DNA from: Methanosarcina vacuolata Z-761
Lineage (GTDB): Archaea; Halobacteriota; Methanosarcinia; Methanosarcinales; Methanosarcinaceae
Direction of reading: 5' to 3'
NCBI RefSeq assembly: GCF_000969905.1
Contig: NZ_CP009520.1
Location: forward strand, 2,852,001-2,916,000
DNA length: 64,000 nt
Part shown: piece after piece, positions 97 through 21,426 of the stretch
Layout of the letters: each line of letters opens with the position of its first letter
How positions within the stretch are numbered: the stretch's first letter is position 1
Position numbers and translations under genes: made by a program
The notes under the pieces: generated by a model
Database searches by the model: none
Told to the model about the DNA's origin: nothing
Seen by the model: the letters and a program-made list of their open reading frames with translations, nothing else

Positions 97-1482
<1,386 letters not shown>

Positions 1483-1510
1483 ACCGTTATGTATAAATAT
1501 GCATAACGGT
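1483..1510 (+). promoter_or_regulatory. 28-bp palindrome centred on a TATA box
   Basis: The arms ACCGTTATG (1483-1491) and CATAACGGT (1502-1510) are exact reverse complements. The 10 bases between them, TATAAATATG, read as an archaeal TATA box and are themselves nearly symmetric. A repressor dimer bound here would cover the TBP site. Transcription would be expected to start about 25 bases downstream, leaving an untranslated leader of roughly 125 bases before the small gene at 1650. The palindrome is seen directly; its operator role is inferred. Confidence 0.7.
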
Positions 1511-1649
1511 CAAACCATTAAATTATAGTAATGCGGTATTTTGACACAAAAATAGAAGGACCATTACAATGTTGAATCCTGGTACATACCGCCTTGATAA
1601 AATATAGTATCAATATGCAAGAATAGACATAACGCTTAGAACTTAAAAA

Positions 1650-1862
1650 ATGAATAATGATGGTGTTTTAAACATAAAAAAGGTTAAAGCAACAAGTTGT
1701 AAAAAAACAAACACAGTTTTTCCGGAAAGGAATGTTAATTCAAAAACGCCCAAGTTAGGAAAACTTCAAATTATACGCGAAACTGGAAAACGAAAAGATA
1801 TTTCCTGCCATATAGTTCAGGATGGCTCCGGCTTCATTGTGGTATTATTTGAGGGAGGTTAA
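1650..1862 (+). CDS. Small 70-residue protein ending in Gly-Gly
   Basis: I do not recognise this protein. It has 70 residues, is Lys-rich in its N-terminal half (KKVKATSCKKTNT), contains two cysteines (C17 and C53) and ends FIVVLFEGG. Its stop codon directly abuts the ATG of the radical-SAM gene (TAA at 1860-1862, ATG at 1863), and the SD sequence GGGAGG for the second gene lies within its last codons, so the two are translationally coupled. A C-terminal Gly-Gly on a protein this size is a feature of ThiS/MoaD-type sulfur carriers, and a short peptide before a radical-SAM gene can also be a modification substrate. Neither role is shown by the sequence. It is probably expressed, given the promoter and coupling. 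Confidence 0.6.
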   Translation: MNNDGVLNIKKVKATSCKKTNTVFPERNVNSKTPKLGKLQIIRETGKRKDISCHIVQDGSGFIVVLFEGG

Positions 1863-3764
1863 ATGCAATGCAATGTATGCGAAGTCAGGTGCGAAATCGA
1901 TAAGCATAGTATGGGCAGATGTGGCACTTATGTAAGCACTGGCAATACTGTAATCCAGTACCCTGATATGGGATATCTGGGAGCACTTCCGGTTTCAATA
2001 GAAGCAGTTCCTTTACTTCATTTCTATCCATCAGGCAAGTTCCTGCAAGTTTTCAGTACAGGATGTAATTTTCAGTGCCCTGGTTGTATGGCACGGATGC
2101 CAGCATCAAGTAGACCTTCGGTCCAGCAAGCCTCACTCAGGCCGTCCAAGATAGTAGAAAAGGCCTTACAACAGGAGTGTCTGGGCGTAATTTCAGCAAT
2201 AAATGATCCTGTTGCTAATTACTATCTTTTCAGGGACCTTGCAGTACAGGCACAGGAAAAAAGTTTACTTGTAGGTTGTTCAACCAATTGTTATTTCACA
2301 AGTGAGACTTTAGAAGAGTTTGGACAGCTCGTTAACTTTGTAAACGTGGGAATTAAAGGTTATTCTGACAGGAGTTATAGAAATTGTGGAGTTAATTCAT
2401 CAGCTCCTGTTTTTCGCAACATCTCCAGACTTTTTGACATGGGAGTACATGTTGAAACTTCAGTCGTTTATTCAAAGGGAAATGAGGATGATGTTATAAA
2501 AGTCGCAGAGGCAGTGTCTGAGATTTCTTCTAATATTCCGTTGCATGTCATGAGATTCCTTCCCTTTGGCTATGCTCCAATAGAACTGGAACCATCAGTG
2601 GGAGACGCAGAAAAAATATGTTCCGGCTTGCGCAGATATCTGGATTTTATCTACCTCTTCAATTCGCCAGGCACGGAACTATTAAACACATACTGTCCCG
2701 AATGTGGCAGTCTCCTGATAGAGCGGGAATTTCACAGGCCTTTTGGCTCCAGGCTTGTGAAACCATGGGTGAGTCACACATGTAGCTGCGGTGGCAGCAT
2801 TCCAGTTCAGGGAAAAGCTTCCACTGAAAGTTTCAATGAAACAGGTTTCATGGACAGTTACAGTATAAGTCAGGATTTCAGTATGGTTCATGCAGTACTT
2901 ACATGTCTGGGAGTACGGGATGATTATAAATTAATGGATGTCTGGGGTGAGGATAAATTAATGGATGTCTGGAGTAAGGTCTCAGACTCCAAAACCCTTA
3001 CGCAAATACATAATATGATACGTCAGCCATATTCTTATCTTGAGTTCATCAGATTTATTGCTGAAATAGCTAATATGCCGGAAAAAGGAGAAGAACTTGT
3101 TTCTTTCATTCATAAGCGATTGAAAATTGTCCAGAATCTTTCAGCAGGAAAAAGCAGTTATAATGTGTATTACTGCATGGGATCTCCGCTCTTTGCCCTG
3201 AATGCCGGCAGAATGGAAAATAACCTTGTGACATTTTCCGGTGGTGTGAGTATCAATAAGCAGCTTCAAAAGGAAGGTAAACTGGGTGTAAATGTTTCCC
3301 CTTCCTTCATCAATAAGCACAATCCCGGGGTTATTTTTGTCTCCGGTTTCCTTTCTCGCCCTCTCGATGAGTTCTATGCTCTGTGCCAGAAATATGGAAT
3401 ACATGCCGATGCTGTGACACAGCATCGTGTCTATGAAATTCCGCCTTCCTGGGATTTCGGAAGCCCTCGCTGGATATTGGGATTATTGTATATAGCAGAC
3501 AAGCTGCATCCCGGAAAACTTGGAGTTGACCTGAGAAAGGAAGCAGATGATTTTTATTTGCAGTTTTATGGTATGCGGTTTAAGGAAGCAAGACCTAACA
3601 GGTCTTTCCACAGGCCTTCCTCTGGCATTTGGCCACACACGCAAACACTGTATAATGACCTCAAAATAGAGATTCCAAAGCAGGGCTCTACTAAAAATTT
3701 CGGCAATGAGATTATTCAACCTTTTAACATCCTGCCAGCTTCTAAAATCAAGCTCAAAGGATGA
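1863..3764 (+). CDS. Radical-SAM protein fused to a FepB-like binding domain
   Basis: A 633-residue protein in two parts. Residues 1-20 hold a Cys-rich start (C3, C6, C10, C20). The radical-SAM motif CNFQCPGC is at C68-C72-C75. A second metal-type motif, CPECG then HTCSCGG, lies near residues 275-310. This half resembles PflA/AmmeMemoRadiSam-type radical-SAM enzymes. From about residue 430 the sequence resembles iron-complex periplasmic-binding proteins (NPGVIFVSG, then GSPRWILGLLYIADKLHP), but there is no signal peptide, so this domain should be cytoplasmic. A 27-bp in-frame repeat (2926-2945 and 2953-2972) duplicates a KLMDVW segment. It is coupled to the 70-residue gene upstream and divergent from nifH. 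The substrate is unknown. Confidence 0.8.
   Translation: MQCNVCEVRCEIDKHSMGRCGTYVSTGNTVIQYPDMGYLGALPVSIEAVPLLHFYPSGKFLQVFSTGCNFQCPGCMARMPASSRPSVQQASLRPSKIVEKALQQECLGVISAINDPVANYYLFRDLAVQAQEKSLLVGCSTNCYFTSETLEEFGQLVNFVNVGIKGYSDRSYRNCGVNSSAPVFRNISRLFDMGVHVETSVVYSKGNEDDVIKVAEAVSEISSNIPLHVMRFLPFGYAPIELEPSVGDAEKICSGLRRYLDFIYLFNSPGTELLNTYCPECGSLLIEREFHRPFGSRLVKPWVSHTCSCGGSIPVQGKASTESFNETGFMDSYSISQDFSMVHAVLTCLGVRDDYKLMDVWGEDKLMDVWSKVSDSKTLTQIHNMIRQPYSYLEFIRFIAEIANMPEKGEELVSFIHKRLKIVQNLSAGKSSYNVYYCMGSPLFALNAGRMENNLVTFSGGVSINKQLQKEGKLGVNVSPSFINKHNPGVIFVSGFLSRPLDEFYALCQKYGIHADAVTQHRVYEIPPSWDFGSPRWILGLLYIADKLHPGKLGVDLRKEADDFYLQFYGMRFKEARPNRSFHRPSSGIWPHTQTLYNDLKIEIPKQGSTKNFGNEIIQPFNILPASKIKLKG
2926..2972 (+). 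repeat. In-frame 27-bp tandem duplication
   Basis: A 20-bp sequence at 2926-2945 recurs exactly at 2953-2972, a 27-bp period or nine codons. It duplicates a KLMDVW segment in the linker between the two domains of the radical-SAM fusion protein without breaking the frame. Confidence 0.9.
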
Positions 3765-3948
3765 CTAAGTAATCGAACGAGTTTCTGATGATGAAATGAT
3801 AGCTCCAAAGCTTTTGAGTTTGGAGGAAAAAATTGTACTCGAGCACTAATAGGTAGCGTTTCTGTAATTTAGGTTCGATCCTCTATCTGCACTCAAGAAG
3901 GAGAGGGGAATATGGTTTTGGGTATAAAATTTAATTAAATTTCATGCG
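3765..3948. other. Short intergenic stretch after the radical-SAM gene
   Basis: No gene is visible. A GGTTCGATCC string near 3871 resembles a tRNA T-loop, but no acceptor or anticodon stem can be folded around it. The following 175 bases belong to a dispersed repeat. Confidence 0.4.
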
Positions 3949-4128
3949 TCTTCGGTTAAGTTAGGAATCGTAATAAATTGCGCCAATCCCCTCAACATTT
4001 ATTAAATATTTAAATAAATTATGAGCTGGAACAGGATATCGATTTCATGTAAATAGGCCAAAATTTAAGGCCGGTTTCTAATGCAAAATCGATATTTTCA
4101 GGCAAGAAAATCCCTTAGCCGATGAACG
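3949..4128 (+). repeat. Dispersed ~175-bp element, copy A
   Basis: This stretch matches the reverse complement of 36195-36372 along nearly its whole length. Shared blocks include AATTGCG, GCTGGAACAG, ATATCGATTTCATGT, ATTTAAGG and CTAATGCAAAATCGAT. The ends form imperfect inverted repeats (CGGTTAAG on the left, CTTAGCCGATGAA on the right). It lies between two convergent genes. No reading frame is conserved, so a non-autonomous transposable element or a structured RNA are the two readings. Confidence 0.75.
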
Positions 4129-4139
4129 ATGAATTAAAT

Positions 4140-4652
4140 TTAACTTTTTTCGTTCTGGAGAGCTAGATCCAGAACATTTTCGTATACTTCTTTACCCTCT
4201 ATTTTTAAAATCCTGGCCGTTGACCTTTCAGTGGTAACGTTCCCATCTTGCTGCATATAAACATATGTCCCGTTTTCAATGCCCACGATTACAGAAGAGT
4301 CAGGGATTACATATATTCCAAAATAATCAGCAAGTGTCGGACTCTTGTCTATATCTACAGTCACGACTGTGGCTCTGCCTGCATAATCTGTTGCAACCTG
4401 AGCCAAAACAGGATTTAACTCCTGACACTCTTCACACCACTCAGCTCCGAGTTTCAAAAGAACTGGCCCTTTTTCGAGAGATGTGTTTATCTGATCCAGT
4501 TGGGTAATCTCTAAAACAGTACTGTTTTCCTGAGAATTTGTAGAATTTTCCTGTGCTTCCTGAGGACTCGTGACATTTGCCTTGCTATTAATACAGCCAG
4601 CTGTTAAGATTACAGCCGCAAGGAGAATCAATAGTATAACTGATTTATTCAT
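4140..4652 (-). CDS. Thioredoxin-fold lipoprotein
   Basis: A 170-residue protein with a signal peptide and lipobox (LTAGC, acceptor C20), so it is probably anchored outside the cytoplasmic membrane. A low-complexity Ser/Asn/Glu linker follows. The thioredoxin domain starts near residue 50, with the active-site motif WCEEC (C73, C76) in the context LGAEWCEECQELNPVL. The cis-Pro segment YVIPDSSVIV follows as expected. It is likely a membrane-tethered thiol oxidoreductase acting on secreted proteins; the partner cannot be told from the context. It is convergent with the radical-SAM gene, and copy A of the dispersed element ends just beyond its stop. Confidence 0.88.
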   Translation of the reverse strand: MNKSVILLILLAAVILTAGCINSKANVTSPQEAQENSTNSQENSTVLEITQLDQINTSLEKGPVLLKLGAEWCEECQELNPVLAQVATDYAGRATVVTVDIDKSPTLADYFGIYVIPDSSVIVGIENGTYVYMQQDGNVTTERSTARILKIEGKEVYENVLDLALQNEKS

Positions 4653-18985: not shown

Positions 18986-20614
18986 ATGCCAGTAATTACC
19001 TTACAGTACGACGACCTTGAAAAACTCACAGGAACCGATAAGGAAACCATCATAAAAAGAGCGCCCATGATAGGGGCAGATATCGAAAGAGTTGAAGAGG
19101 AATCTATAGATATCGAGTTCTTCCCTGACAGGCCTGACCTTTACAGTGTGGAAGGAGCAGCCAGGGCAATGCGGGGTTTTCTGGACCTTGAGACCGGACT
19201 GTCCGAATATGAGATAAAGCCGCCCAGGGTTTCGATCTCGGTCAGTGAGGAGATCCTTAGAATCAGGCCTTTTCTTGGGTGTGCGGTTGTAAGGGGCATA
19301 AAATTCACATCCTCGTCCATAAAATCCCTTATGGACCTTCAGGAAGACCTGCACTGGGGGCTTGGAAGAAACAGGAAAAAAGTGTCTATAGGCGTACATG
19401 ACCTCTCGAACGTTAAGCCGCCTTTCAGGTATATGGCCGTAGATCCGGGTTTTGAGTTCGTGCCACTGGACTACACCGAAAAAATGAGCATGACCGAAAT
19501 CCTGGAAAAGCACCCAAAAGGCACGAGATTTGCACATCTTGTCAGGGGCTTTGAGAAATACCCAATAATCCTGGACTCAAACGATAACGTGCTTTCCTTC
19601 CCGCCTATCATTAACGGGACACTTACAAGTGTGACCGAGCGTACAACCGACCTCTTTATCGATGTCACTGGACTTGGAGAAGCCGTTTATACCGCCCTGA
19701 ATATCGTTGTTACCGCCCTTGCGGAAAGGGGTGGCCAGATCGAATTCGTAAAGGTTATCAGGCCCGACTCCGGAGAACTTATCCTGCCTGACCTTGAACC
19801 GAAGACCAGGTTCATTACAAAGACTGAAGTAAAAGACCTTCTGGGCATGGAACTCTCCTTAGAAGAAATCGTTAAACAGCTTGAGAGAATGCGCTTTGGA
19901 GCAAAAGCCATTGACGAAGAAACCATCGAAGTAAAAGTCCCGGCTTACAGGGCCGATATTCTTCATAACTACGACCTTGTAGAGGATATTGCCAAGGGTT
20001 ATGGATATGAAAACATCAAAGTAAGTATTCCTGAAACTTATACCCCAGGAAAGTCTCACCCGATTTCCTTACTTCGCGCTCCCGTAAACGAGATAATGGT
20101 AGGGCTCGGCTACTATGAGGTCATGCCGTTTACGCTTACCAACGAAAAAATTAACTTCGATAACATGCGCAGGCCAAAAACGGATGATGTTACCTATGTG
20201 CTTCACCCGATCAGCGAAGACCAGACAATGATCAGGACAACCCTGCTTCCGAACCTCCTTGAGATTCTTGCCTTAAACCAGCACAGGGAATTGCCTCAGA
20301 AGATTTTCGAGTTCGGCGAGGTCGCAAATAACGAAATAACCGGCCAGCACGTAGCTGCAGTCTCGATTCACCCTCAGGCCAACTTTACCGAGATCTATGA
20401 GGTTGTAGACGCTCTGATGAGGGAAATGATGCTTTCCTACGAGGTAAAAGAGTCCGAAGATCCCGCATTCCTCGAAGGCAGGCGGGCTGATGTTTACGTC
20501 AGAGGCAAAAAACTCGGAGTCTTTGGAGAATTCCATCCTGAGGTCATAAACAATTTTGCCCTTGGATACGCAGTTGTCGGGTTTGAACTTGACCTCAATG
20601 ACCTTATTGGTTAA
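18986..20614 (+). CDS. pheT: Phenylalanine-tRNA ligase beta subunit
   Basis: A 542-residue archaeal PheT. The open frame extends upstream into the CRISPR array, but the family start is [18 protein letters not shown] at 18986, which gives the normal archaeal length. Segments typical of the subunit include [25 protein letters not shown] (B3/B4 region) and [48 protein letters not shown] (B5 and catalytic-like core). It forms the alpha2-beta2 enzyme with PheS, which is not in this window. Its promoter must lie in the 158 bp between the last repeat and the start, or transcription could come through the array. Confidence 0.96.
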
Positions 20615-20707
20615 TATTGGTTAAAAATTAGATTTTAAGTTGAGAAGAGACTCTTCTCTCTTATTTCCTTCACTTTTATTTCAGCACATTTTTATTTCAG
20701 CACATTT

Positions 20708-21328
20708 TTATTTCAGCATTTTCTCCATTTCGGCTGCGATTTTTTGGACTTCGGATATTTCTTCAGTCTCAGCTAGCCTGTAAGTAAGTTCAAGCAGCCT
20801 TTCTTTCAGGGAGCCAAGTTCATCAAGGGTACAGTTAAGCTCTTCAAGAAGGACCCCCAGGGTTTTTATCTCAGTTGTCTCTGAAAACTTTTCAGGGCCT
20901 GCTTCTATAAGGAAAAGTGTCTCAGGAGAACTGAGGTCAACATCGTATTCTTCCTCGAAATCTCCCTTCGGGATCGTTTTAGACCAGCTCACACTCCTGA
21001 TATGCCTGACAAAATCACTTATCTGCCGATACTCATAATCTCCGGTAACTTTTCCAATCAGCATCTCGTTCCTGGTTTTTAGTGGGACCGCCACAAGGTC
21101 TCCTTTCTTTATTTTTGTGATAAAAGAGTAAATCTCTCCTGCCCAGGCAGAACTACGCTCGTCCTGCATCCCGGGATATTTCTCAAGAATTAGTTTCTTT
21201 ACCTGTCCTTCGTCTTTAATACTGGACAAATCCGGAAGTTCAGACCACCCGATTGTAATTATGCTGTTTTCCAGAATCAGCTCTTCATCTTCCAGGGTGC
21301 CTGCAGCTTTAAGTAACCAGAATTTCAT
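20708..21328 (-). CDS. PUA/EVE-like domain protein
   Basis: A 206-residue protein. Residues 1-150 resemble the PUA-like/EVE domain found on its own or ahead of Mrr- and McrB-type restriction enzymes: MKFWLLKAAG, IITIGWSELPDLSSI, IYSFITKIKKGDLVAVPLK, IGKVTGDYEY and HIRSVSWSK. Such domains bind modified bases in DNA or RNA. Residues about 160-206 are a predicted coiled coil (LEELNCTLDELGSLKERLLELTYRL). No nuclease motif is present. It is convergent with pheT, some 2 kb from the CRISPR array. Whether it acts in defence or RNA modification cannot be decided here. Confidence 0.7.
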   Translation of the reverse strand: MKFWLLKAAGTLEDEELILENSIITIGWSELPDLSSIKDEGQVKKLILEKYPGMQDERSSAWAGEIYSFITKIKKGDLVAVPLKTRNEMLIGKVTGDYEYRQISDFVRHIRSVSWSKTIPKGDFEEEYDVDLSSPETLFLIEAGPEKFSETTEIKTLGVLLEELNCTLDELGSLKERLLELTYRLAETEEISEVQKIAAEMEKMLK

Positions 21329-21426
21329 GACTTTCCCCCTTTTCGTTTTAATTTTGCATTTTTCTAGAAATTCTACTTATATTCCCAATTTACCATTTTC
21401 CAGGTTCTTATAATTGGTTGTCAATC

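Follow-up and report, generated by a model that had tools for sequence, protein, structure and literature searches.

The radical-SAM/binding-protein fusion encoded at positions 1863 to 3764 (forward strand) of the window, the 64,000-nucleotide stretch of the Methanosarcina vacuolata Z-761 genome that was analyzed here, appears to be a second, vnfH-linked copy of a fusion that belongs to a ModE-controlled molybdenum/tungsten (Mo/W) acquisition operon. We place the probability of this reading, which covers both the identity of the gene and its role in the Mo/W regulon, at approximately 0.7. The fusion is a real, conserved protein that is tied to Mo/W, and the chemistry it would carry out is proposed below on a more tentative footing. 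Its link to the Mo/W regulon is strong, and the regulatory evidence is the strongest functional evidence available for it. Our searches of the open literature found no paper on the fusion or on its operon. A type II import operon of the Mo/W type is of a known kind, and the fusion enzyme within it is, as far as the literature searched shows, unprecedented.

The fusion protein and its two halves

The fusion gene begins with the ATG at 1863 and runs for 633 codons to its end at 3764. The sequence-only reading had described its product as a PflA/AmmeMemo-like radical-SAM half joined to a binding-protein half, and both profile and structure comparisons bear this description out. The radical-SAM half (residues 1-320, positions 1863 to 2822, forward strand) scored 43 bits against PF04055, where the cut-off is 29.5, as expected of the radical SAM superfamily. 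Its cluster motif, C68-X3-C72-X2-C75 (positions 2064 to 2087, forward strand), is invariant in 33/33 sequences, and a further set of cysteines (C3, C6, C10, C20, C278, C281, C307 and C309) is invariant or nearly so in the same 33-row alignment. The nearest NCBIfam model for this half is TIGR04337 (AmmeMemo radical-SAM), although the score of 91.4 bits is below the cut-off of 220, and a 354-aa AmmeMemo-type paralog in the window genome is 28% identical to the fusion. The fusion shares the CX3CX2C motif, the N-terminal cysteine-rich motif and the PFL-activase fold with the PFL-activase/AmmeMemoRadiSam family, but differs from AmmeMemoRadiSam enzymes in its extra C-terminal half, derived from a substrate-binding protein (SBP), and in its setting in a transporter operon. 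No signal sequence was seen in the fusion, whose N-terminus reads MQCNVCEVRC, and its apparent location is therefore the cytoplasm, as had been suggested. Purifying selection acts on the fusion (dN/dS 0.16-0.28).

The structure of the fusion was predicted with AlphaFold2 from 33 sequences (pLDDT 83, pTM 0.84), and this model was used in place of a poor earlier one made from 15 sequences (pLDDT 62). Residues 33-265 of the model match the PFL-activase structure 3c8f (Z 18.1, rmsd 2.8, 222 aligned). Residues 338-579 match class III binding proteins, with Z values of 17.6-20.3 to 4hn9 (Z 20.3, rmsd 3.1, 225 aligned), MolA 3psa (Z 17.8, rmsd 3.0, 218 aligned) and 4pag. The closest solved relatives besides MolA are 4pag, 4hn9 and 4ovk.

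Based on these fold and sequence matches, the binding-protein-derived half spans residues 335-577 (positions 2865 to 3593, forward strand) and consists of helices, a hinge helix (406-427) and a C-lobe (434-570). The PF01497 match to this part of the protein is weak (17.3 bits, below the curated cut-off of 27.5), and the similarity at the sequence level is confined to the hinge helix and C-lobe, where residues 371-565 align with 116-315 of 4pag and residues 383-564 with 141-324 of MolA. The AlphaFold2 model predicts no strands between residues 301 and 433, the place of the N-lobe core, and because of this the N-lobe core of the Fec/MolA-type fold seems to be absent. The predicted protein thus has the C-lobe and hinge helix of a class III (Fec/Btu-type, PF01497) SBP, but is not a two-lobed hinge-helix binding protein; it further differs from that class in having no signal sequence and in being joined to a radical-SAM enzyme. 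One may imagine that the radical-SAM barrel faces the C-lobe in place of the missing N-lobe. The SBP family from which the lobe derives also serves iron siderophores, heme, nickel and B12. A metal- or cofactor-related role, which had been proposed for the binding domain, is supported as a candidate role and is strengthened by the ModE-type regulon described below.

The operon and the copy beside the vanadium nitrogenase

A second fusion in the window genome, at C2:3.796 Mb, is 71% identical to the one in the window and lies inside an operon. The gene order in Methanosarcina is a lipoprotein-like binding protein (~365 aa), a methyltransferase (~207 aa), the fusion (~590 aa), a FecCD permease (339 aa) and an ATPase (~260 aa), with gene ends that overlap or nearly abut. 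The gene directly 5' of the operon fusion encodes a 207-aa class I methyltransferase (PF08241), the frame of which is full length in 12 of the 14 operon loci in the genus and shortened in genomes G001 and G002. Elsewhere in the family, at 17 loci from other genera, every fusion is preceded by the binding protein and the methyltransferase. The ATPase was located in 16 of these, one contig being cut short, and simple ORF selection recovered the permease in 12. Across the order, the fusion is present in 34 of 186 genomes and in 7 of 27 genera. The ancestral unit comprises the binding lipoprotein, the class I methyltransferase, the fusion, the FecCD permease and the ATPase. The two-gene unit that is conserved is not the small ORF and fusion of the sequence-only reading; it pairs the fusion with the methyltransferase, usually within a transporter operon. 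The methyltransferase may nevertheless be dispensable, since it is shortened in G001 and G002 and gone from the second copy.

The transporter genes of the operon correspond to a MolBCA-type set, that is, a FecCD permease (PF01032, 304 bits), an ATPase and a MolA-like SBP, and molybdate or tungstate would on these sequence grounds be the likely ligand. The binding protein scored 82.9 bits against PF01497 and aligned over its full length (residues 47-352) with MolA HI_1472 (3psa) at an E value of 1.3e-28; MolA is the second-best solved relative, after 4pag (E 6.7e-59). MolBC-A (HI1470-1472) of Haemophilus influenzae is a type II Mo/W importer, the molybdate function of which is described in PMC4031551. 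The archaeal operon resembles that system in its FecCD permease, ATPase and full-length MolA-like binding protein, but adds the methyltransferase and the fusion of a radical-SAM enzyme with an SBP lobe.

In the window, the fusion is divergent from a nifH-type gene (positions 97 to 924, reverse strand; NCBIfam nifH, 456 bits), as had been noted. This gene is the first in a cluster that continues with two PII genes, vnfD, vnfG and vnfK, the products of which score above the equivalog cut-offs (VnfD 1010, VnfG 173.7 and VnfK 902 bits). Judged by these profile scores, the gene is vnfH, the iron protein gene of a vanadium (V) nitrogenase. In the tree, the six fusions linked to vnfH/nifH group together (SH-aLRT 99) as the sister clade of the operon copies of the genus. 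Of the genus genomes, 7 encode an alternative nitrogenase alpha chain; 6 of these have the second copy, and G018 lacks the fusion altogether. The remaining 24 genomes are without the second copy. The genomes with a second copy are exactly the six in the genus with a V-type nitrogenase, five of them forming one clade so that few independent events are represented, and in five of the six the fusion is divergent from vnfH. No remnants of other operon genes were found beside the window copy except for the tail of the methyltransferase. A candidate match to the binding protein gene at 3048-3569 was discarded, as it is the fusion's own lobe. A single duplication gave rise to the vnfH-linked copy, and the other operon genes were then lost. 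In this copy the fusion remains under purifying selection while the methyltransferase decays.

The decay of the methyltransferase accounts for a feature to which the sequence-only reading had given particular weight. A 70-codon ORF (positions 1650 to 1862, forward strand) ends in FEGG, and its TAA directly precedes the ATG of the fusion at 1863; both frames are present as it described. The product had been proposed to be a peptide substrate or a sulfur carrier. Instead, the 70-aa sequence aligns over its length to residues 141-207 of the 207-aa operon methyltransferase (two-sequence BLASTP, E 5e-12), a homology that leaves out the SAM-binding part. In each of the other five species that carry this locus, the sequence before the fusion is still recognizable as the methyltransferase tail, but the 70-codon frame is broken by stops or indels: two consecutive TAA codons lie inside the tail in G003, upstream stops are found in G029 and G004, stops together with a frame change in G005, and stops in G001. 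The frame is thus kept over its 70 codons in none of the five relatives, an outcome that the earlier reading had itself named as fatal to a small protein. The last 40-50 codons remain open in three relatives, and pN/pS over the last 40 codons (1.76, 0.44 and 0.94 for three pairs with few changes) shows no purifying selection on them. The fusion gene takes its Shine-Dalgarno sequence from the final codons, GAG GGA GGT, so that GAGGGAGGT (positions 1851 to 1859, forward strand) serves as the ribosome-binding site and also encodes the terminal E-G-G; before the fusion, this sequence is kept at loci L035, L037 and L038 and reads GGGGGAGGT at L036. No Pfam or NCBIfam family matched the 70-aa sequence above cut-off, PF11813 remaining below it at an E value of 0.2.

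By the combined sequence evidence of methyltransferase homology, broken frames, pN/pS and Shine-Dalgarno codons, the Gly-Gly feature is therefore the pseudogene end of a methyltransferase together with a ribosome-binding site, and the ORF is no partner of the fusion. As a conserved 70-residue protein it is already refuted. A RiPP precursor, a peptide substrate and a ThiS/MoaD-type carrier were each considered and rejected, as the frame is unconserved, no carrier or leader family matches and the sequence is a methyltransferase C-terminus. That a functional small protein or leader peptide (a substrate, a carrier or a leader for translational coupling) is nevertheless encoded here is very improbable. 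The frame is intact in the window species, where it abuts the start of the fusion, and its end is open in the three relatives mentioned; however, its whole length is accounted for by the methyltransferase, the frame is interrupted in every relative, and the tail pN/pS of 0.44-1.76 compares with the far lower ratio of the fusion. What looks like a two-gene unit with an inviting Gly-Gly tail can thus be pseudogene decay together with a Shine-Dalgarno sequence.

Promoter palindromes and the putative ModE regulon

The intergenic region between vnfH and the fusion contains two palindromes of the form CGTTATGTT-N6-AACATAACG, which resemble the bacterial ModE operator. The one on the vnfH side (TGATATGTTTAGATAAACATAACA, positions 1170 to 1193) was found by pattern search with 3 mismatches and has a counterpart with 2-3 mismatches in 5/5 other loci. 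The one on the fusion side (CGTTATGTATAAATATGCATAACG, positions 1485 to 1508) overlaps a TATA-like TATAAATA at 1492-1499; a comparable site, with 2-4 mismatches, is present at the corresponding position in four other loci, and G001 has one with 2 mismatches at -503. The pattern is most regular at the operons. Each of the 14 operons in the genus has the palindrome 55 to 61 bases before its first gene, with 1-2 mismatches; none of 1400 shuffled windows came closer than 4 mismatches. It is also upstream at all 17 loci of the other family genera, with up to 5 mismatches. No known RNA element was found in the fusion leader, as the region 900-4200 gave no Rfam match up to an E value of 1.

A genome-wide pattern search of the window genome, allowing up to 3 mismatches and using the reversed pattern as a control, returned only 9 places, with none for the control. 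They are two fmdE/F/A/C operons (modB/modC lie divergent from one of them), modA and the vnfH promoter, the two copies of the fusion, Fec-type genes for binding proteins or permeases, and one further place, at a chaperonin-like gene, that is probably spurious. Sites in five more genomes precede modABC, fmd, nitrogenase and fusion-operon genes, alongside a few sites that are unexplained. The window genome has a ModE gene, assigned through the TOBE domain of its product (PF03459, E 2.6e-16), as the scores to TIGR00637 (ModE) are below the curated cut-off in the genus. The palindrome is therefore one that the fusion promoters have in common with modABC, in a genome with a TOBE-containing ModE, and from its position and the composition of the regulon ModE would be expected to bind it. 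For Methanosarcinales, PMC9765008 places modABC under the control of ModE and states that the different types of nitrogenase are affected by ModE as well. The set of genes described here resembles the molybdate regulons of bacteria and Methanosarcinales in its palindromes before modABC, fmd and nitrogenase genes and in its TOBE-containing ModE, but the open literature searched showed no radical-SAM fusion operon among the members of such regulons.

A phylum-wide search recovered near-full-length fusions in several other families, as well as one in a Desulfurococcales MAG (33% identity); moaA is the divergent neighbor of the latter. Among 20 loci outside the family, most have the methyltransferase immediately upstream, often together with Fec-type transporter genes; no ModE-type palindrome was seen in promoter position at these 20 loci. 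One outside locus has the order modA-modB-modC-methyltransferase-fusion (ModA 156 bits against a cut-off of 62.5, ModB 232 against 182.6), and at another the binding protein and fusion adjoin two moeA-type genes and the gene for formylmethanofuran dehydrogenase subunit A (fwdA). Mo/W genes adjoin the fusion in only 3 of 21 loci outside the family, a frequency that alone is not far above possible expectation. These gene neighborhoods, though few, point to Mo/W.

Proposed role and alternative explanations

The regulatory step of the proposed mechanism is strongly indicated: when Mo is short, ModE would release the promoters and the fusion would be made. Import of a Mo/W species by the transporter is likely. 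The binding-protein-derived lobe could then bind, in the cytoplasm, either a Mo/W complex or the ligand of such a complex; the radical-SAM half would direct 5'-deoxyadenosyl-radical chemistry at the bound ligand, and the methyltransferase, where present, would use that compound as well. Most probably, the metal-ligand complex would be dismantled or converted after import, which would let its Mo/W enter cofactor pathways. ChuW and HutW, radical-SAM enzymes that open imported heme, offer an analogy for such a breakdown. The reverse is conceivable as well, with the fusion helping to build the ligand, and the vnf-linked copy may serve V. This assignment of a specific ligand chemistry is tentative. 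More doubtful is the broader proposal of an undescribed archaeal metallophore cycle, in which a radical-SAM enzyme with its own cytoplasmic metal-complex lobe remodels a Mo/W/V ligand and a duplicate has been recruited to V-nitrogenase.

An alternative is that the operon serves another metal complex (an iron siderophore, a corrinoid, heme or nickel), that the fusion acts there and that the ModE site tunes the system to the needs of nitrogenase. The best scores of the transporter subunits are indeed to models for B12, F420-0, heme and Fe-dicitrate, and the SBP fold family is common to BtuF, CeuE and heme binders. However, the operator is directly upstream of each operon examined and is common with modABC and fmd, the second-best solved relative of the operon SBP is MolA, and a gene set exists that joins modABC to the methyltransferase and fusion; we consider this explanation unlikely. 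About equally unlikely is that the fusion is a sensor or activase, the radical-SAM half of which modifies a protein, such as the transporter or a nitrogenase maturation factor, when its C-lobe is loaded with metal. In its favor, PFL-activase, the nearest fold match of the radical-SAM half, has a protein as its substrate, and NifB-like matches are present as well, but no gene for a protein target is conserved across the fusion loci apart from the transporter genes and the methyltransferase.

In a refinement that is compatible with the Mo/W reading, and that we regard as rather unlikely in this specific form, the duplicate beside vnfH would have been recruited to handle a V complex on behalf of the V-nitrogenase, with Mo/W left to the operon copy. 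Consistent with it are the confinement of the second copy to the V-type genomes, its divergent position, the ModE-like sites on both sides of the vnfH-fusion intergenic region and ModE-marked Fec-type transporter genes near the same V-nitrogenase clusters. Against it, no V-specific residue change is known in the second copy, the number of independent events is small as noted above, and placement near vnf may merely reflect a common repression by Mo.

The assignment of the fusion to Mo/W acquisition bears on the standing question of how anaerobic archaea are supplied with Mo, W and V in scarce or sulfidic settings, a supply that matters because these metals are required by formylmethanofuran dehydrogenases and nitrogenases. 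A metallophore cycle of the kind outlined, if true, would be the radical-SAM counterpart, for group 5/6 metals, of the anaerobic release of iron from heme. The ModE-marked operon is spread across seven Methanosarcinaceae genera, with relatives in several other archaeal families, and is open to genetic testing, as M. acetivorans and M. barkeri are tractable in the laboratory. At two of the loci outside the family, the methyltransferase position is taken by a different O-methyltransferase and a DUF364/DUF4213 protein annotated as 'putative heavy-metal chelation'.

Features of the vnfH-linked fusion and its downstream gene

In the fusions linked to vnfH a short stretch is duplicated internally (KLMDVWGED / KLMDVWSKV; window 2937-2975, fusion residues about 359-371); the copies within the transporter operons lack this repeat. 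In a five-species clade the C-terminus of the fusion is longer by approximately 40 residues, an extension modeled with low predicted confidence. Downstream of the window fusion, a gene for a 170-aa thioredoxin-like lipoprotein lies on the minus strand (4140-4652), and it occupies the matching position in all five close nifH-linked loci.

Fec-type genes near putative ModE operators

Fec-type transporter genes marked by the ModE-like palindrome adjoin the vnf/anf region in M. vacuolata (L076:8340-11315, G000:C2:2838339-2841314) and in G001, another genome of the genus (L160:15870-19757 and L161:307-1395). Both sets comprise a FecCD permease, an ATPase and one to three related binding proteins, and in Methanosarcina they are candidates for an importer of vanadium or a vanadium chelate. 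A lone Fec/MolA-type binding-protein gene in M. vacuolata (L075:5753-6880, G000:C2:4248752-4249879) has its own ModE-like palindrome, and approximately 0.7 kb downstream of it lies the second of the two ModE-marked fmdE/F/A/C operons of this genome.

Variant fusion loci

At L203 and L204, two loci from another archaeal family, the usual methyltransferase is missing and its place is taken by two other proteins, an O-methyltransferase of another kind and a 'putative heavy-metal chelation' protein of the DUF364/DUF4213 type (L203:9297-11311; L204:2090-4104). Genome G324 (L212, G324:C1:14000-29000) has two neighboring fusion copies on opposite strands, one of which is apparently split into distinct radical-SAM (19689-20633) and lobe (20623-21426) frames.
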